Positions 1 to 7,710 of a stretch of DNA of 49,946 nucleotides are shown in pieces. Every line of letters starts with the position of its first letter. The stretch's first letter is position 1. This stretch comes from Alistipes senegalensis (lineage in GTDB: Bacteria > Pseudomonadota > Gammaproteobacteria > Burkholderiales > Burkholderiaceae_D), in assembly GCA_023664945.1 (NCBI GenBank), contig JAMPER010000006.1, positions 1-49,946 on the forward strand, in the 5' to 3' direction. The notes beneath the pieces are model-generated. The model made no database searches, was not told where the DNA came from, and saw only the letters and a program-made list of their open reading frames with translations. Made by a program: the position numbers and the translations under genes.

Positions 1-38
1 GGACTCATACCATATTGTAAGGCCTCAGGCACGATTAG

Positions 39-296
39 CCGGAAATATTTCTACTCTTACTCTCTGCAACGCAATTGATAGCCAGATTCTGCCGCCTTTT
101 TGTCCAGGTGCTTAACCGTAGTGATTCGGGTTACAGGCCAACGCTGCATGAGTGCCGCTCGCTTTCGGAGCGGCTTTATCGTGAGCAAGGTATCAATACG
201 CAGGTGCTTCTGTGTCATAGAAGCCAAGCTATGACTGACTCTTATAATGATATGCGCGGGCTTGATGGGCAAGAGCTCAGGGTTCTGGTGGTGTAG
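39..296 (+). pseudogene. C-terminal remnant of a phage-type tyrosine recombinase
   Basis: Only the last part of the catalytic domain is left. The frame is open from about 39 (stops at 18-20 and 36-38 close it upstream) to TAG at 294-296. It shows the order expected at the end of a lambda-type integrase: an HxxR box (RPTLHECRSL), the sequence REQGINTQ, a second histidine in LLCHRSQAMT (families usually have LLGH), and the nucleophile tyrosine in TDSYND. No recombinase N-terminal or mid-domain is visible upstream, so this cannot be a working integrase. It lies close to, but on the opposite strand from, the recombinase N-terminal half at 365-1360. The two pieces are therefore not simply two ends of one broken gene without a rearrangement. 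The gene could be complete only if it began outside the window in another frame. Confidence 0.7.
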
Positions 297-364
297 GGAA
301 GCACCGCCTTGGCGGGTATTCCTGATATGCTTATTCGGTAGTTAAAAAATTTCAACAGATGTCA

Positions 365-1360
365 CTACATTTTCTGAAAAGCTCTATTGTCATCAGCCCC
401 AGAATAATTTTGTAGGCGTATGGCACTTTCGCTTAGTGCTATATTGGATAAAATTCCAGCATATTTGCGCGTTGTTTCAAATGATTCTAGTCGATCATAA
501 TGATTTCCGTGCACAATTTTTGATCTACCTTCTGTATAAATATCGTCAATAAAATTCGTAAGATTCAGTTTGTACTTCCCTGTTACAACAATATCTTTAC
601 GCGACTTTCCCGTCAGATTTTCTGTCATCCTTAGAATACCCTTTTTTCCCCCTGCCCCTGAAAGAATATCAAGGCAAGCTCCAAATTTGACCACCGCAAT
701 GGCATCATTTAATTCGCGGTTTCCCTCTGCAAACCAATCTAATGCTGTAAGCCATCGCATGGCTAAATTGGGACACTTATGCATTGACGGATTCAATACC
801 CCAGTAATGATCTGGCCAAATGCTTCCAGTAAGTTGCTTCTTTCTTCGATAGCTTTTTGAAGTTTTTCGCCCCTCAACATTGGTATGCGTGGCCCCAAAG
901 ACATACCGGGAATGTGGAGAAAACCATTCGTTTCAACGAGCGTTTTTGTACCAATCGGAGGAAGGCATTCATCATACAAAGCTTGCCATTCCTCCAGCCG
1001 CATCCGCTGGCTGCGTATTGTCACAGGCAAAGGCTTAATAGACACAGCAGGATTAGAACCAATCAGACCGGCAGCAACCGCTTCAGCAAAACATTCTCTG
1101 GCTTCCAGCAGGACACGTCTGGCAGTGTTTTGCCTTCCGGATTGCCATAACGCATGAACAGCCTGAGCAATGTGAATTGGTCTCACAGCTCTGATACGGA
1201 TATGCCCGATAGCCTGTTTTAGATGGGCCAGGTTTCTTTTGCGTTTGTTGATGGTTTTAGGGTGAAGGGACCGCAGGGCAATGAGCTTTTCAAATTCGGT
1301 ACACCAGTCGGCAACGAGGGTAAGACTAGGGGCGATCCGGGTCAGGATTTTGGCGAGCAT
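365..1360 (-). CDS. Chimera: tyrosine-recombinase N-terminal half fused to an Apea-like HEPN domain
   Basis: 331 aa, ATG start preceded by AGGAGA at good spacing. Residues about 1-135 look like the core-binding (SAM-like) region of a phage integrase: a helical LHPKTINKRKRNLAHLKQ stretch, NTARRVLLEARECFAEAVAAG, GSNPAVSIKP and RLEEWQALYDEC, the usual lead-in to the catalytic domain. The catalytic domain (R..HxxR..Y) is absent. From about residue 140 to the end the protein resembles Apea-like HEPN proteins: MRWLTALDWFAEGNRELNDA, then ACLDILSG, then EGRSKIVHGNHYDR, which contains an Rx4H motif (R279, H284) typical of HEPN RNases. No stop or frameshift interrupts the frame. HEPN proteins are often RNases in defence or toxin systems. 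Whether this fusion is active, or only an accidental join that stayed open, cannot be told from sequence. There is no obvious partner gene next to it. Confidence 0.65.
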   Translation of the reverse strand: MLAKILTRIAPSLTLVADWCTEFEKLIALRSLHPKTINKRKRNLAHLKQAIGHIRIRAVRPIHIAQAVHALWQSGRQNTARRVLLEARECFAEAVAAGLIGSNPAVSIKPLPVTIRSQRMRLEEWQALYDECLPPIGTKTLVETNGFLHIPGMSLGPRIPMLRGEKLQKAIEERSNLLEAFGQIITGVLNPSMHKCPNLAMRWLTALDWFAEGNRELNDAIAVVKFGACLDILSGAGGKKGILRMTENLTGKSRKDIVVTGKYKLNLTNFIDDIYTEGRSKIVHGNHYDRLESFETTRKYAGILSNIALSESAIRLQNYSGADDNRAFQKM

Positions 1361-1500
1361 GGGTGTCTCCTGTCGTTTTTGTACAGGGTCATTTCACCAT
1401 GCGTTTGCAGCTAGTGTAATTGTTTTGCAGTCTGTGCAAATGATTGTACAGGTGGTTTATTGCGCGTAACGCTTCAATTTATCGCGCGCCGCTTCAATTT
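1361..1500. promoter_or_regulatory. Repeat-rich leader upstream of the recombinase-HEPN gene
   Basis: The 140 bases upstream of the start codon contain repeated short motifs. TTGTACAGG occurs twice (1379-1387 and 1444-1452). TTTGCAG occurs twice, near 1404 and 1424. A near-palindrome TGTGCAA-N4-TTGTACA lies at about 1434-1450. Such repeats are typical of regulator or recombinase arm-binding sites, but no -35/-10 pair is convincing. The function is inferred from position only. Confidence 0.3.
1461..1500 (+). repeat. Two tandem ~20-bp direct repeats
   Basis: Two copies with the shared word CGCTTCAATTT, each preceded by GCGCG and spaced exactly 20 bp apart. They lie about 100-140 bp upstream of the recombinase-HEPN start. 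They could be arm-type integrase sites or iteron-like regulator sites. Confidence 0.55.
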
Positions 1501-1756
1501 TTACAGCCTGCCTACTTTCTACTAAAAAGAATATTTCCCTTATCTGTCCCTCTGGTTGCGCATGTAAAAATATACCCGCCTGTTCCAGTTATCATCCTAC
1601 TCAAACTCATAATCAAAGCCTTCGCTAGATTACGGTGAAATAATATGGTACTAGGAAAGCCTTCCTTCAGCGTTTTAATCAAAAGATTGTCTGCCGGATA
1701 AGGATACAATTTCCTTTTATTTCAATATCAGCGTACGTTATCAGACGCCATAAAAA
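1501..1756. other. Non-coding gap with no recognisable gene
   Basis: No reading frame here has a recognisable protein or a convincing ribosome-binding site. The minus-strand frame at 1512-1709 has no familiar motifs and looks like chance. Base composition is more AT-rich than the flanking housekeeping DNA, in keeping with the decayed island around it. Confidence 0.5.
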
Positions 1757-1785
1757 CAAAAAACCATGAAACCGTCCGGTTTATG
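1757..1785 (-). terminator. Probable Rho-independent terminator of the ogt-like pseudogene
   Basis: Read on the minus strand, CATAAACCG and CGGTTTCATG pair (one bulge) and are followed within two bases by a run of six T. It sits about 60 bp after the pseudogene's last stop codon. Confidence 0.45.
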
Positions 1786-1842
1786 ATGACCTCTGTTTTC
1801 TCAACTTTACTTAACACGCTGGAAATATTTCCTAACTGGAAT

Positions 1843-2399
1843 TCACCATAATCTGCTTTTTGCTGTTTTGGCACACTCCAACTCCAACAATCCTCTTTTG
1901 GCGTCAAGGCCGCCGCCATAACCGGCCAGTTTGTGATTGCTGCCGATAACCCGGTGAGAAGGTACGAAAATAGAGATCGGGTTGGTTGCATTTGCCGATG
2001 CAACTGCCCGCACAGCCTTCGGACGATAGATGCGGCGAGCCAGTTCGCCATAAGATATGGTCATGCCGCGGGGTATTTTCATGAGCTTTTCCCATACAGC
2101 ACACTGAAATGCCGACCCTGTGAAGACAACCGGAACATCAAAAGTTTTACGCCACCCTGCGAAATATTCATCCGGTTCCCCATCGTCTGCTCGATCACAC
2201 CGGAGGTTCCCTCTTCATATTGTGCATGCAGATATCGCTGTACGCGCCGGTCTATCGTATGACGGCGTTTCTCCACAACCAAGTCACAAATACACAACCG
2301 TCCAACTAAAACTGCCGGCCAGCAAAACGATTCATCCGAATCATACAAAGTAATTCTATCTTTGCAATCACCAATTCTACATCTGATTCCGTTTTCCAC
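1843..2399 (-). pseudogene. Broken O6-methylguanine-DNA methyltransferase (Ogt/Ada C-terminal type)
   Basis: The C-terminal half is unmistakable. In one frame (about 2214 down to 1843) it reads FDVPVVFTGSAFQCAVWEKL, IPRGMTISYGELARRI, RPKAVRAVASANATNPIS and then a GYGGGLDAKRGLLELE-type end. The catalytic PCHRV motif is PSHRV here: the codon at 1957-1959 is TCT (Ser) instead of a Cys codon, so alkyl transfer would be abolished. The frame has no upstream ATG and is closed by TGA at 2215-2217. A second frame upstream (2399 to about 2220) begins MENGIRCRIGDCKDRITLY and resembles the N-terminal part of the same family, so at least one frameshift separates the halves. Repair of O6-methylguanine was the ancestral role. 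The gene is interpreted as dead. Confidence 0.75.
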
Positions 2400-2570
2400 A
2401 CATCGAGCACATGGATTTTTTGGATAGGAACCTCCTGCCCACTATTTTCCGGATGCAGGCAACATTTCTAAACAAAATGCACATAGAAACCTGCTTGAAT
2501 ACTGGGTTTCATGCAGGTTTATGCACGCTATTGGATAGTAAAAAAACGAGTTTTGGAGGCAGCACTTGAA

Positions 2571-2607
2571 ATAAAAAATCCCAGACATTTTTGGACTATC
2601 CGGGATT
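2571..2607 (-). terminator. Terminator-like hairpin after integrase remnant A
   Basis: On the minus strand AATCCC (2607-2602) pairs with GGGATT (2582-2577) around a 19-base loop region and is followed by TTTTAT. The stem is only 6 bp and overlaps codons of the old integrase frame, so this may be coincidental. Confidence 0.3.
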
Positions 2608-2734
2608 AATTTCTGAAACCCTGTCGGCGTGACTTCCAGATAAAGTTAACCTCCATTAAAAAGCTTGTAAGTCTTCTCTTTGGGCTTGACGTTTTTACCT
2701 GGAGGGCTGTCAGCGACTTGATGACTTTCCCCAT
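2571..2734 (-). pseudogene. Integrase remnant A (start of a P4-type, DUF4102 integrase)
   Basis: The ATG at 2734 follows GGAGG and reads MGKVIKSLTALQVK. A frameshift then leads to NVKPKEKTYKLFNGG, an in-frame TAA, and LYLEVTPTGFQK. This is the N-terminal signature of P4-like island integrases (TAIQVKNAKPKEKPYKLFDGGGLYLEVTP). Only about 50 codons survive, with a frameshift and a stop. A second, differently broken copy lies at 4180-4281. P4-type integrases insert at tRNA 3' ends, which fits the nearby tRNA-Ser gene. Confidence 0.75.
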
Positions 2735-2890
2735 GCTCACATCCTCCTTTTTGGGAGTATCTATTTTTACTCAGGAGGAATTTTTGCTAAATCGTGCCCC
2801 TCATTTATTGGATGTCAATGAATTGCCTAAAACGCTATTAAACAAAAAATCCGCGAACCGCATGATTTTACACGGTTTTTTTTGCAGGAG
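2650..2890 (-). repeat. Copy A of tRNA-terminator/leader/integrase-start module
   Basis: This stretch aligns along its whole length with 4196-4435 (copy B). Shared landmarks in order are CTCCAT.AAAAAG, CTTTGGGC, GCGAC.TGATGACT, CATGCT, CCTCCTTTTTGGGA, AAATCGTGCCCCTC, AAACGCTAT and a degraded form of the tRNA terminator ending TTTTACACGG. Copy A is the more decayed of the two at its terminator end. It is interpreted as the scar of an earlier or tandem island integration at the same tRNA-Ser locus. Confidence 0.75.
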
Positions 2891-3177
2891 GAATTACAAT
2901 CATCTTATGAAACTTGCATAAATACTATATTTTATTAAATTAAAATTTTACAGAGGAATTACTACGGTTATTTGCAACCAGTTAAAACAAGCAGTTCATA
3001 AAAACATTATCATTTATTTTTACAGCAAAACCATTTTTTGAAAAGAGAGGGTATAAGCTAATTAAAGAACAGCAAGTGGGGCGACAGGGAATTTTTCTTA
3101 CAACTTTATATAAATAAACTTTAGTTTGTTGGAAAACCAGTAAAGCCAGCCGAGTTCGCCCGTTTCATATGTACTGG
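2891..3177. other. AT-rich gap, no gene seen
   Basis: Very AT-rich sequence between integration module A and the antitoxin region. No frame with a ribosome-binding site or recognisable protein is seen. GCAGGAGGAATT at 2884-2895 faintly resembles the 3' end of the tRNA-Ser gene (GCGGAGAGGAAGGGATTC) where an attR would be expected, but the match is too weak to call. Confidence 0.4.
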
Positions 3178-3312
3178 TTAAGCTTTGTCCAGAATTGATT
3201 TCTTGTCTTCACTCAAGTCTCCAAATTCCTGTAATGCTTCAGCTGGAACTTCCTTTGATGTTTCAGGCTGTGGTACTTTTTTACGAATCCTAAATTTTCC
3301 ATATTTCCTTCG
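3178..3312 (-). pseudogene. Unrecognised short frame without start codon
   Basis: An open frame ending at TAA 3178-3180 reads KKVPQPETSKEVPAEALQ, then EFGDLSEDKKSILDKA. It is a hydrophilic Glu/Lys-rich stretch that looks like real protein rather than chance sequence, but the frame has no ATG, GTG or convincing start and is closed upstream by TAA. An overlapping frame with an ATG (MENLGFVKK...) is only 28 codons. It is probably the 3' end of a lost gene. No family is recognised. Confidence 0.25.
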
Positions 3313-3363
3313 TTATTTTTACAAACTAACCTTTGGAACACTTTAGCGTTCCTTTAACCTGTT

Positions 3364-3600
3364 TTACTCATTGATGCCAACCAGTTCAGAACACTTCTTA
3401 TTGATATTGATGTTCAAATTATTTTCACCGGTTGATTTGTAAAGAGTCATAACACAATTGGAATACTGCTTAATTTTACGCTCCCTCAAATCTTCATTTT
3501 TATCCACAAACAACTTGATGAGGAATAAAACAAATACAACAACCAGCAACCCTCCTACAGTAGCTATTGCAGTTATTATCAACTTTTTATACTCTTTCAT
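3364..3600 (-). CDS. Small single-pass membrane protein, unknown function
   Basis: 78 aa with an AAAGG ribosome-binding site 7 bp upstream of ATG. After a short basic N-terminus (MKEYKK) there is one long hydrophobic segment, about residues 8-32 (ITAIATVGGLLVVVFVLFLI). A soluble charged tail follows, holding two cysteines (SNCVMTL and KKCSELVG) that could form a disulfide if the tail is periplasmic. It starts just 11 bp after the end of the truncated frame downstream of the AbrB-type antitoxin, in the position where a toxin gene would normally continue. No family recognised. It may be a cargo gene that replaced the toxin, or an unrelated gene. Confidence 0.45.
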   Translation of the reverse strand: MKEYKKLIITAIATVGGLLVVVFVLFLIKLFVDKNEDLRERKIKQYSNCVMTLYKSTGENNLNININKKCSELVGINE

Positions 3601-3611
3601 TTATTTACCTT

Positions 3612-3653
3612 TCAACCTAATTGAGCCAGTATTCCCTCAATAACGATTTTCAT
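3612..3653 (-). pseudogene. Truncated start of the antitoxin's partner gene (possibly a PIN toxin)
   Basis: An ATGA overlap links this frame to the antitoxin stop codon, the usual coupling in AbrB-PIN (VapBC-type) pairs. It reads MKIVIEGILAQLG and stops. MKIVI is the common opening of PIN-domain ribonucleases (MKIVIDTN...), but the Asp is already lost and the rest is missing. With only 13 codons the family assignment is an inference from position. Confidence 0.35.
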
Positions 3654-3922
3654 GCCTGCTCGCGCTTCTTTTTGCGGTATTCCTTGACAATGGTATTCAC
3701 GTCTTCTTCTTTGTGCCCGACAGAAGCCGCCCACTGCTGTGCCTCATCCCATGCAGCCTTGCATTCTTCCACCGAAGGCAGCTTCAACGTCTTGAGCATA
3801 ATCGTATCCCCGTTTGCATATGCAACCAGCTTATCGCCTGTACTGATCGCCATTTTCCTGCGCATTTCGGCAGGAAGTGAAATCTGCCCTTTGGATGAAA
3901 CCGTCAAAACCTGTGTATCCAT
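3650..3922 (-). CDS. AbrB/MazE-family antitoxin-like regulator
   Basis: 90 aa. Residues 1-45 form a swapped-hairpin AbrB DNA-binding domain: QVLTVSSKGQISLPAEMRRK, then GDKLVAYANGDTIMLK. Residues 50-90 are a charged helical tail (EECKAAWDEAQQWAASVG...VKEYRKKKREQA) of the kind that wraps a PIN-type toxin in VapB-like antitoxins. It starts at ATG after GAAGGGGG. A perfect 19-bp palindrome lies 12 bp upstream and is the likely autoregulatory operator. The overlapping downstream frame is cut short after 13 codons, so the antitoxin seems to be solitary and may persist as a plain repressor. It lies inside the decayed tRNA-Ser island. Confidence 0.8.
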   Translation of the reverse strand: MDTQVLTVSSKGQISLPAEMRRKMAISTGDKLVAYANGDTIMLKTLKLPSVEECKAAWDEAQQWAASVGHKEEDVNTIVKEYRKKKREQA

Positions 3923-3933
3923 AGTACCCCCTT

Positions 3934-3952
3934 CAGTAAGATTTTCTTACTG
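3934..3952. promoter_or_regulatory. Perfect palindromic operator before the antitoxin gene
   Basis: CAGTAAGATTTTCTTACTG is an 8-bp perfect inverted repeat with a 3-bp centre, 12 bp upstream of the AbrB-like gene's ATG. Position and symmetry suggest binding by the antitoxin dimer itself. Confidence 0.6.
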
Positions 3953-4179
3953 TACAAAAAAAGACACGACATGGCAAAAAAGAAGAAGTTATGCTGTGGT
4001 ATCTGTCGGTTTTTTCAGGTTATGTTCTGCCTGTACGATTTAGTCTGAACTAGTACAAATAAGGCAATAGGTGCTCTCTTCTTTCCCGGATGCTGGGTGT
4101 TTGTGTTTTTTTTGTCTGTGGGGTTATGCTACTTTGTCTATACGGGGGATTCTCTCTGGGGGAATAACAGCAGCTTTTC
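3953..4179. other. Gap between antitoxin and integrase remnant B
   Basis: No gene is supported here. The minus-strand frame running from 4409 to 4050 is the out-of-frame read-through of the broken integrase and its flank. It contains no recognisable integrase sequence after the KLFDGGG point. Confidence 0.4.
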
Positions 4180-4281
4180 TCAGATTGACAGGCCGCCTCC
4201 ATCAAAAAGTTTATAGTGCTTTTCTTTGGGCCTAGCGTTTTTTTTACTTGGATGGCTGTTAGCGACCTGATGACTCCCCAT
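4180..4281 (-). pseudogene. Integrase remnant B (start of a P4-type, DUF4102 integrase)
   Basis: An ATG with a strong GGAGGAAAGC ribosome-binding site opens a 33-codon frame. Its second half reads KKNARPKEKHYKLFDGGG, the start signature of P4-like island integrases, and then ends at TGA. The first codons are shifted: compared with copy A, two bases are missing after ATGGGG, and extra A's in a homopolymer restore the frame. In the alternative frame the family sequence VIRSLTAIQVKK is still readable. It lies 180 bp from the tRNA-Ser 3' end, the normal place for such an integrase. Everything after the first 33 codons is lost. Confidence 0.8.
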
Positions 4282-4435
4282 GCTTTCCTCCTTTTTGGGA
4301 CTCTCTGTTTTTGCCCAAGATGCATTTTTACGAAATCGTGCCCCTCGTTTGCCGGATGCCAATGGACGACATGAAACGCTATAAAACAAAAAAAAACCCG
4401 CGTAAACACTTGGTTTTACACGGGTTTTTGGACGT
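4196..4435 (-). repeat. Copy B of tRNA-terminator/leader/integrase-start module
   Basis: The counterpart of 2650-2890. This copy abuts the tRNA-Ser gene and keeps the terminator intact. Both copies preserve not only the integrase start but also the roughly 100-bp leader between terminator and integrase, so the whole module was duplicated by successive integration or recombination and then diverged. Confidence 0.75.
4388..4424 (-). terminator. tRNA-Ser terminator
   Basis: On the minus strand CCCGTGTAAA pairs with TTTACGCGGG (one mismatch) and is followed by a run of nine T. It lies 37 bp past the tRNA 3' end. Confidence 0.75.
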
Positions 4436-4460
4436 TGTTGGATGCTGTGAAACAGGTTTC

Positions 4461-4551
4461 TGGCGGAGAGGAAGGGATTCGAACCCTCGATAGGCTATTA
4501 ACCTATACACGCTTTCCAGGCGTGCGACTTCAACCACTCATCCACCTCTCC
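4461..4551 (-). tRNA. serX: tRNA-Ser(GGA)
   Basis: 91 nt with encoded CCA. The acceptor stem GGAGAGG pairs with CCTCTCC, the discriminator is G, and the T arm contains GGTTCGAATCC. The anticodon loop CTGGAAA gives anticodon GGA. The extra arm between the anticodon and T arms is long (TATAGGTTAATAGCCTATC forms a stem), as expected for a class II serine tRNA. This gene is the apparent integration target for the island remnants on its 3' side. The gene symbol is the E. coli-style name and is not certain in this organism. Confidence 0.93.
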
Positions 4552-4563
4552 GCTGAATTTGAG

Positions 4564-4592
4564 ATAATATCGCTTTGGTGTAACAAGGTCAA
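4564..4592 (-). promoter_or_regulatory. Sigma-70 promoter of tRNA-Ser
   Basis: On the minus strand: TTGACC (-35, 4592-4587), a 17-bp spacer, and TATTAT (-10, 4569-4564), with the tRNA 5' end 12 bp further on. Confidence 0.7.
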
Positions 4593-4773
4593 GATTCCAC
4601 ATATAATCTTCCGTCTCTTTTTCCACATACCCAAACTGGCCGGGAATGGTATAAGACCGTTTTGCCTATCGCTGCCTCATCCACCAGCGCAATATGCCTG
4701 GCAAAAAAAGAAAAACAGTTGGATGATCACAGCATGAAAATGTACCAGGAAAGCTATCAAAAAACTTTATCCT

Positions 4774-5388
4774 TCAGGCATATGGAAAAACGCCTGCCCG
4801 GTTACCGCTTCCGGAAGCGAGCCATGCTCCCGATACCTGACAAGCCTGCCCATAATCCGGCATATCCGCCTCAGAAGCGATATTCCGCCATTTATTGTCT
4901 GATTCCTCCTGCATAAAAACATCAGCCAGATAAATCCAGTTTTCATTGGAGAAATGCTCGCGAGCCAATGAAAAAACAGCGTCTTCTTCCTCACTCAGCA
5001 TTTGCATCATCGTATGGCAATATTCCCGGATATGTTTTTCCAGCAGTTCCGGGTAATTTGTCTCTCCTGAAAGCTGCCGGTAAATCAGCTTGCCAACCGA
5101 AGCATGAAGCGTCAGAGAAAGCCGGTGCAGGGCGTCACGCGCCGCTATCTGCCTGGCCTCCTGCCCCGCCTGCTTCCTCACTTCAGGCAAAAAGTACCGC
5201 TCAACCCGGCGGGAACAACACCTTAGGCAAAAACAGCTGAAAACCTGAAAGAGGCTTTCCGGTTCGCCATCTCCCCCTTTCCCCCGCAAAAGTATATTTT
5301 CTGCCCGGTTTTTCAAATAAACCAGTTCTTGCCTGAAACCGTCATTCTCAACCTGGATGGCAACCTGTATATATGTACTTGAAAGCAT
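4774..5388 (-). CDS. Hypothetical protein with a hemerythrin-like helical region
   Basis: 204 aa, not firmly recognised. The middle part is all-helical, with histidines and acidic residues spaced as in hemerythrin HHE domains: LHRLSLTLHASVGKLIYRQL, LLEKHIREYCHTMMQM, and SEEEDAVFSLAREHFSNENW (compare the HEEE..FP.L.......W pattern of bacterial hemerythrins). A cysteine-rich patch CFCLRCC lies near residues 53-58. No signal peptide or membrane segment is seen. The ribosome-binding site is weak. It could sense or store oxygen, NO or iron if the metal ligands are real. Several canonical ligand positions are not obvious, so it may equally be a degenerate family member. Confidence 0.5.
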   Translation of the reverse strand: MLSSTYIQVAIQVENDGFRQELVYLKNRAENILLRGKGGDGEPESLFQVFSCFCLRCCSRRVERYFLPEVRKQAGQEARQIAARDALHRLSLTLHASVGKLIYRQLSGETNYPELLEKHIREYCHTMMQMLSEEEDAVFSLAREHFSNENWIYLADVFMQEESDNKWRNIASEADMPDYGQACQVSGAWLASGSGNRAGVFPYA

Positions 5389-6186: not shown

Positions 6187-7710
6187 TTAGTCCTTCCCTG
6201 CTTCCCAGAGCGAATCATAAAGCCTGTTTTTCTTTCTCAGCTCATCACTCAATTTAGTCTTGCCCAATTCCTCCACCAGCGTAGGGCGCATTGAAAACAG
6301 CGATGTACCCAACCCCAGGCGGTGCCCCTTAATTTCATAACCTAATGCCTCCACCAGCGTCGGAAACATATCTACCTGCGTAAAGCGGCGGGATAAATCA
6401 GGCGCTTTTTTGCGCGCATTCACAAAGGCATTGAAAATAAAGCGGGATTCATCCGGCGAATTTTTAAAAAGGGTATGCGTTTCCTCCCCTCTTCTTCCTC
6501 CGGCTCTCATCAGCAGATGGTCGCCTATAAAAACAACTACCGTCTTTTTCCCGAAAGGCTGCTCCCTCACCCACTCCAGAAATTCTCCTGCCATGCGTGA
6601 AGCCTCATAAATAGTACTCTGAACCGTTGTCGGAAAATGATTTTTATCCGGAGGATTGGCGTTGCCAAAATGCGTGTCAATAGTCGCCATCACAGCAAAA
6701 AAGGGTTTGTCATGAGGAAGCGACAGGATTTTCTCCTTGAAAAAATCATAGGTAAACCGGTCGTAAAAACGCTTCCTTATCTTGGCCTTGAGACATTCTG
6801 CCTGATAATCTGACTCGAATCGCTCTGTCAAATGCCGGATATCATAAAATGCCTCAAAACCATGCGACTTCAAAAATACATCTATTCCGCTGAAACGGCC
6901 GCTGGTTCCCTGTACATATAAGTTCTGATAACCCAGGCCTTCCAGAAGCTGTCCTATAGAAAACGCATTCGGCGCAAAATCCGGCAGCGAACCGCCCACC
7001 CGGAGCGGATTGCCAATCCGCATCAGATAAGTAGTGGGCACACTAATCATGCTGCTGACCAGCGCCGATTGGGTCGGGAACTGGCCATACCCTTGCATAA
7101 AATGGGAAAAAGACTGGTTTTCTTCCGCAATCCGGCTAAGCTGTGGAATAAGGTTACGCTGCATCAGCTTTTTATCCGAAAAAGTTTTTTCCATACTTTC
7201 CAGATAAACCACAATCAGGTTCCATTGCTGCTTATCAGATGGAGGCGTGATCATGGCCTTTTCAGGGGCAACATAAAAATCCTCATAAAACTGGCTGACC
7301 TCCCGGTTATATTGCCGGTTCAGGTTCTCGCTCACCTGAAACATCTTGTTAATGCGAAAACCGCTGGAAACAAGGATGGCAATACTTACCAGACAAACCA
7401 CCAGGTTACAAAACGGCATAGCCTTGGCCAGCGCCATGCCAAGCCGGTTTTCTTTTCTGGCAAGGCGGCTGCCTGCCCACCGGATGATGAAAAACAGGCA
7501 TGAATACAGAAAAGCCTTTAACAGAACCTTGATATAAAAAGTCTGCGTAAATTCCGATTCTGCCCCCTCAAGCGGCACATTGAGAAAAAACATCACCTGT
7601 TCAAAAGTTGCACTATGAAAACTTTTTGTAAACCATTTGATCAGGTAAACAGAACAAAGAGCAAAAAACAGCAGTAAAAAAACACCTGCCTGCTTGAGGA
7701 ATTTCGACAT
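6187..7710 (-). CDS. LTA-synthase/OpgB-like membrane phosphoglycerol transferase
   Basis: 507 aa. The N-terminal 140 residues hold four or so hydrophobic segments (AGVFLLLFFALCSVYLI, IKVLLKAFLYSCLFFIIRWA, MPFCNLVVCLVSIAILV). A periplasmic sulfatase-fold domain follows: NLIVVYLESMEKTFSD (metal-binding first strand), the nucleophile region FPTQSALVSSMISVPTTY, DTHFGN and VVVFIGDHLLM. This is the architecture of LtaS/OpgB enzymes, which move phosphoglycerol from phosphatidylglycerol onto glucans or other acceptors in Gram-negative envelopes. The exact acceptor is unknown. It stands alone, with no glucan synthesis genes beside it. The start lacks a clear ribosome-binding site but fits the transmembrane start. 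Confidence 0.8.
   Translation of the reverse strand: MSKFLKQAGVFLLLFFALCSVYLIKWFTKSFHSATFEQVMFFLNVPLEGAESEFTQTFYIKVLLKAFLYSCLFFIIRWAGSRLARKENRLGMALAKAMPFCNLVVCLVSIAILVSSGFRINKMFQVSENLNRQYNREVSQFYEDFYVAPEKAMITPPSDKQQWNLIVVYLESMEKTFSDKKLMQRNLIPQLSRIAEENQSFSHFMQGYGQFPTQSALVSSMISVPTTYLMRIGNPLRVGGSLPDFAPNAFSIGQLLEGLGYQNLYVQGTSGRFSGIDVFLKSHGFEAFYDIRHLTERFESDYQAECLKAKIRKRFYDRFTYDFFKEKILSLPHDKPFFAVMATIDTHFGNANPPDKNHFPTTVQSTIYEASRMAGEFLEWVREQPFGKKTVVVFIGDHLLMRAGGRRGEETHTLFKNSPDESRFIFNAFVNARKKAPDLSRRFTQVDMFPTLVEALGYEIKGHRLGLGTSLFSMRPTLVEELGKTKLSDELRKKNRLYDSLWEAGKD

Follow-up and report, generated by a model that had tools for sequence, protein, structure and literature searches.

How did a single open reading frame come to join the N-terminal half of a phage integrase to an RNase-type HEPN domain, and is its product a working protein? 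The ORF that raises this question belongs to an accessory island in an Oxalobacter chromosome, within the 49,946-nucleotide stretch of DNA analyzed here (the window). The initial annotation had described an uninterrupted reading frame at 365–1360; the frame is present, with 331 codons, its strand being corrected to minus (ATG at 1360, stop at 367–365). Codons 1–131 (968..1360, minus strand) encode the core-binding domain, the linker and the first catalytic-domain residues of a lambda-type integrase, and codons 132–331 together with the stop (365..967, minus strand) correspond to the C-terminal ~200 aa of a protein of the PHROG family phrog_38039. At the junction, codons 126–131 (Q-A-L-Y-D-E; 968..985, minus strand) are compatible with both parent families. 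We favor, at a probability of roughly 87%, the reading that this ORF is an accidental fusion produced by a recent deletion in a prophage integrase-HEPN gene pair, and that its product has no selected function.

The N-terminal half was identified by matches of residues 31–108 to the Pfam domain Phage_int_M (E = 4.7e-8) and of residues 16–131 to the PHROG integrase family phrog_7244 (E = 3e-15); the core-binding region proposed at the outset is thus present and is that of a lambda-type tyrosine recombinase. Integrase homology extends to residue 131, which corresponds to approximately residue 191 of lambda Int and is upstream of all the catalytic residues of that enzyme (R212, K235, H308, R311 and H333; PMC10516654), every one of which is lost from the fused ORF, in agreement with the catalytic domain having been called missing. 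Three intact paralogues of 299 aa each are found elsewhere in the genome (C9:87266, C8:779682 and C9:91458) and are 84, 83 and 79% identical to the ORF, respectively, over residues 1–133/134; the one scanned against Pfam has both Phage_int_M and Phage_integrase. A search of the genome with the fused ORF returned six matches, namely itself, three integrase N-halves and two shorter pieces, and a profile built on the intact paralogues returned nine matches at seven places, three intact and six partial, the latter including the fused ORF (1–133), an opposite-strand fragment at window positions 60–293 (222–299) and one with two stops. This profile aligns to residues 74–352 of lambda Int (PDB 1z1b), which has the core-binding domain in common with the fused ORF; the paralogues differ from lambda Int in beginning after its arm-binding domain, whereas the fused ORF is without the catalytic residues too.

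The expression signals upstream of the ORF are likewise those of an integrase. A leader with a ribosome-binding site (1361..1496, minus strand; AGGAGA at 1366–1371) is there as first described, but rather than being the ORF's own it belongs to the integrase: it is common to one intact integrase gene (L002), and its first part is also found in a second (L003). The third intact copy (L004) has a different leader. With such signals the chimera could be made. As to the genomic settings of the family, two convergent 299-aa integrases (L010:3267-7860, equivalent to G000:C9:87266-91859) surround genes for an 8xMP membrane protein (4274–5017, minus) and a DUF4145 protein (6223–6912, plus), each of which meets an integrase gene tail to tail; at the third intact copy (L011), the gene met in this way encodes a trypsin-like protease. 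Members of the family also follow the pyruvate carboxylase gene, in this genome as a broken copy (L009:2746-3147) and in an O. formigenes MAG as an integrase C-terminal part at a contig end (L022:1-431), and this is an integration site common to the two genomes.

The C-terminal half, residues 126–331, matches the PHROGs v4 family phrog_38039 at profile positions 244–453 of 457 (E = 1.3e-38). It bears the motif R279-SKIV-H284, which conforms to the Rx4-6H motif of the HEPN superfamily; both residues (codons at 524..526 and 509..511, minus strand), correctly recognized from the start, are invariant in two alignments of relatives. This half is 34–51% identical to the aligned relatives and keeps other conserved residues besides R-x4-H, the difference from the family being that an integrase fragment stands in place of its N-terminal ~250 residues. 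The initial label of the domain as Apea-like went unconfirmed: no model of Pfam, NCBIfam or PADLOC, Apea models included, matched the C-terminal half, and PADLOC gave no credible match among 13 relatives of the HEPN half. The ApeA/BMEI1217 HEPN family is tabulated with the same conserved Rx4-6H (PMC3710099, Table 1), and a remote relationship of the C-terminal half to Apea-like HEPN proteins may exist. Foldseek searches with both structure models returned no match at E <= 0.001; the N-terminal half of the fusion model, which was modeled without homologue rows, is mostly below a pLDDT of 50, and the model is uninformative on the packing of the two halves.

A search of viral_contigs with profile A3 recovered 16 HEPN loci, 14 of them with a frame of 452–539 codons stop to stop, one interrupted by a stop (L050) and one cut by a contig edge (L043). 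With a full-length profile 19 loci were obtained, including the 16 A3 contigs; 16 of these are open over 425–458 of the 458 query residues, a further one (L080, on the contig of L050) covers the query but is frameshifted, and the remaining two (L043 and L084) run off the edge of their contigs. The N-terminal ~250 residues are accordingly present in 17/19, one of them the frameshifted locus, the other two being the ones cut at the edge. All 13 members of the full-length alignment, drawn from 13 of the 16 viral loci, match phrog_38039. The HEPN half alone as query found no match in viral_contigs or genome_contigs. Among the genomes searched the family is seldom encountered: apart from the genome under study, relatives were recovered from 4/399 genomes of the order (frames of 549, 742, 506 and 487 codons), 1/369 of the class (472 codons) and 2/398 of the phylum (453 and 469 codons; controls 0/14). 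All seven are in frames of 453–742 codons, four being distant and matching only part of the query. Two phage records and two plasmid records also match, and a 457-aa gene product of Acinetobacter phage vB_AbaSI_5 (XOT52784.1) is annotated as a 'HEPN domain-containing protein'. On these comparisons the parent of the HEPN half was a prophage protein of 450–470 aa, probably RNA-cutting, and the half itself is a truncated copy of such a longer protein. The missing N-terminal part was absent from the genome in a first search, run without a positive control, and the full family profile gave a single match there, at 244–454 of 457, as against 20–453 in another genome.

This distribution bears on two ways in which the HEPN half might have existed on its own. 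An ancestral split, with the half once an independent short gene, was rejected, as no relative was seen to be short by itself. Alternatively, the HEPN domain might be all that matters at present, as a minimal RNase toxin made either as the fusion or from an internal start, with the integrase half providing only a promoter and a ribosome-binding site. The HEPN half is indeed conserved as well as in its relatives; however, there is no stand-alone C-terminal HEPN domain among them (two are cut by a contig edge and one is frameshifted), an RNase without regulation would be harmful, and the sole nearby antitoxin-like gene identified, of the MazE type, is 2.3 kb away in a stretch common to the relative G007. 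We therefore regard this alternative as very unlikely.

The breakpoint itself can be placed closely. Around codons 126–135 the DNA is integrase-like through the Q-A-L-Y-D-E codons and HEPN-gene-like from the L-P-P codons on. MAFFT aligns the Q-A-L-x-x-E of the integrase part with identical residues in the HEPN proteins. The PHROG matches to the two families have residues 126–131 in common, that to the integrase ending at 131 and that to phrog_38039 starting at 126. Because both families fit these residues, this short common stretch is the likely crossover point. Searched separately, as had been suggested, the two halves resolve into an integrase and the end of phrog_38039, but their junction was encountered nowhere else: the exact 29 bases have no match in viral_contigs, the whole fusion as query gave no match in its HEPN half in any of 59 other genomes (12 of them from the same genus), and no other HEPN relative among those examined is joined to an integrase piece. 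Nor is an integrase-HEPN fusion described among the literature matches listed (open-licence; titles and abstract beginnings).

A junction seen in one genome might also be an assembly artifact, arising where a repeated integrase gene comes close to a contig end. The contig begins at window base 1 inside the repeated integrase upstream region, and this repeat recurs at the end of contig C9 (94.7% over 76 bases). Against this, the copies of the N-terminal half differ by 15–24% in DNA, too much for confusion, the junction is ~970 bases inside the contig, and searches of the rest of the assembly did not find the lost part of the HEPN gene. An assembly chimera is hence an extremely improbable explanation.

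Intact integrase and HEPN genes do occur side by side in other prophages. In 5/16 viral loci (L038–L042) the end of a same-strand integrase overlaps the start of the HEPN gene or is only a few bases from it, an example being L042:1235-3600 (within L036–L051). These tandem integrases are of a different type from that of the fused ORF, and the four scanned (all but L040) have Int_N and Phage_integrase. In L043, L044 and L051 the integrase is ~0.75 kb from the HEPN gene on the opposite strand, bringing the integrase-linked HEPN loci to 8/16, a count that is redundant (L040 is like L041 and L043 like L044) and refers to flanks of at most 3 kb. An integrase adjoins the HEPN gene in L014 and L019 as well, the only two loci found when the HEPN loci were searched by phmmer with a few integrase queries, Pfam performing better. 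In a named phage (L013) the HEPN gene is annotated among the structural genes of an Acinetobacter-type phage, and from the neighboring ORFs four others (L045, L047, L048 and L049) look like cases of the same carriage.

The deletion that we favor would have acted on such a pair. A prophage or small integrative element in the island would have carried an integrase gene followed by a same-strand accessory HEPN gene, and a deletion between short stretches common to both (Q-A-L-x-x-E-x-L), the frame being kept by chance, would have taken the catalytic part of the integrase along with the initial ~250 HEPN residues, or ~1.3 kb if the genes abutted. The product, if made, would link a core-binding domain that binds DNA weakly to a HEPN domain without its own N-terminal region, a region that is probably sensing or regulating. 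We infer deletion as the mechanism, as well as its recency and the lack of selected function; the immediate surroundings and the state of the sequence bear on these points.

The ORF lies in an accessory stretch (1..1496) absent at this place in the nearest relative, G007, in which the counterpart of window 1497–4438 (contig C5, 95.5–97.5% identical) directly adjoins a gene of 524 aa. In the genome under study the 524-aa gene is on contig C3 behind ~7.5 kb of other DNA, and window 1–1496 and C3:1-7486 would appear to be parts of one accessory island absent at this place in G007, the inclusion of the latter resting on synteny because the two contigs are unjoined in the assembly. At the very end of the contig (base 1), an integrase upstream region (1..76, plus strand) is joined directly to a C-terminal fragment of a convergent integrase (76..296, plus strand; residues ~228–299), which has lost its N-half and in which the LGH motif has become LCH (G273C). 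That the junction is seen in one genome only of those searched, in an accessory stretch among integrase pieces, supports an accident, as does the loss of the N-half from the other integrase in the window; yet the plus-strand fragment could be the end of the fused ORF's own integrase after an inversion, which leaves two broken genes unproven.

Several further features were observed in this region. The C3 stretch (L096:1-7486, G000:C3) has ORFs that, read by eye, resemble two regulators, one of them of the HTH type, and a macro-domain protein. An earlier delimitation of window 1–4353 as a strain-specific tRNA-Ser island, which rested on one G007 contig starting 308 bases beyond the match, was overturned, as G007 carries 1497–4438 on another contig. 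There (L093:1-16079 on C5; L055:1-308), the equivalent of window 4438 is followed by other DNA right before the tRNA-Ser (window 4461–4551), with genes for proteins with helicase/NOV_C, DUF1156, DUF499 and AAA domains and integrase upstream sequence at bases 1–58; it looks like a defence-type element. An imperfect 230-base direct repeat (window 2650–2881 and 4196–4429, ~77%), also present in G007, ends near the tRNA-Ser. The minus strand of window 1728–2399 encodes a methylguanine-DNA methyltransferase domain (Pfam DNA_binding_1 at 1846–2082) in overlapping short frames and reads PSHRV in place of the active-site motif PCHRV; this gene looks broken. The MazE-type antitoxin gene is at window 3653–3922 on the minus strand (Pfam MazE_antitoxin, E = 5.7e-10), and no toxin gene was identified beside it among the few neighbors scanned.

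Within the fused ORF, no stop, frameshift or raised substitution rate was found over the 331 codons. The integrase half gives pairwise dN/dS values of 0.10–0.13 against its paralogues, compared with 0.09–0.14 among the intact copies, estimates that are rough because dS is 0.7–1.5. It has private changes at 4/96 otherwise invariant positions, against 6/98, 4/96 and 9/101 in the intact copies, although by eye its changes are more radical (G42R, G57R, E66Q and R117S). Of the 33 columns that show conservation in 90% or more of 20 relatives, a set from which the distant L015, L019 and L020 were left out, the HEPN half keeps 32, and its branch of 0.53 is inside the range of the other leaves (up to 0.95). 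The plus-strand fragment, in turn, departs at 9/62 invariant positions, of which five are where it is broken off, versus 1/54, 5/58 and 1/54 in the intact copies. Together with the radical changes of the integrase half, these departures may be read as weak signs of decay. Most of what the initial annotation had named as evidence against its fusion idea was obtained, namely a junction in a single genome of those searched and a HEPN half that occurs elsewhere in longer proteins; the exception is clear loss-of-function signs, which were looked for in the sequence and not found. As there are no stops, the conserved columns are kept and the rate is not raised, the event was recent or, less likely, the product has been kept.

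The second of these options would correspond to a functional chimera, in which the integrase core-binding domain replaces the HEPN N-terminal region and places or regulates the RNase at core sites, under an integrase promoter. It could draw on related integrase sequence at seven places in the genome, on the open frame with its intact catalytic motif and conserved columns, on the integrase leader and ribosome-binding site, and on a precedent for the recombinase fold as a DNA-binding regulator, namely MrpR of SPbeta, a tyrosine-recombinase relative described as a tested repressor without recombinase activity (PMC10516654). Like the fused ORF, MrpR is related to tyrosine recombinases; it differs in that, by the same account, it keeps both recombinase domains and has no RNase domain. 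However, the chimera was found in a single genome, its junction, rather than marking a domain border, falls beyond the core-binding domain and within the opening part of the catalytic one, the partner's 250-residue N-terminal region is gone and the adjoining integrase piece is broken. We consider a functional chimera quite improbable, and hold out still less expectation for the specific version in which the core-binding domain steers or controls the HEPN RNase, e.g., by reacting to the presence or excision of related integrative elements at their core sites; if true, the recombinase half would be the sensor of a defence RNase. Between the two readings initially offered, then, a random junction in a decaying island is the favored one, and nothing shows that a captured effector has been kept for a function.

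The intact parent of the HEPN half was most likely a prophage-borne defence RNase with an N-terminal sensor and a C-terminal HEPN domain, as in the case of Tha, a HEPN defence protein carried by S. aureus prophages and activated by a phage tail protein, whose RNase is active on infection (PMC11087260). According to the published description, Tha is similarly prophage-borne and combines an N-terminal region without a recognized domain with a C-terminal HEPN domain with R-x4-H; it differs in being 301 aa long and from another phylum. Its C-terminal HEPN domain, carriage by prophages and direct coupling to an integrase gene in 5/16 loci make phrog_38039 a good candidate for a Tha-like defence RNase of prophages that is linked to an integrase. 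The fusion itself matters little, other than as a clear case of how a deletion between neighboring genes can yield an open, designed-looking chimera; the intact integrase-coupled HEPN family is of greater interest and is worth a test.
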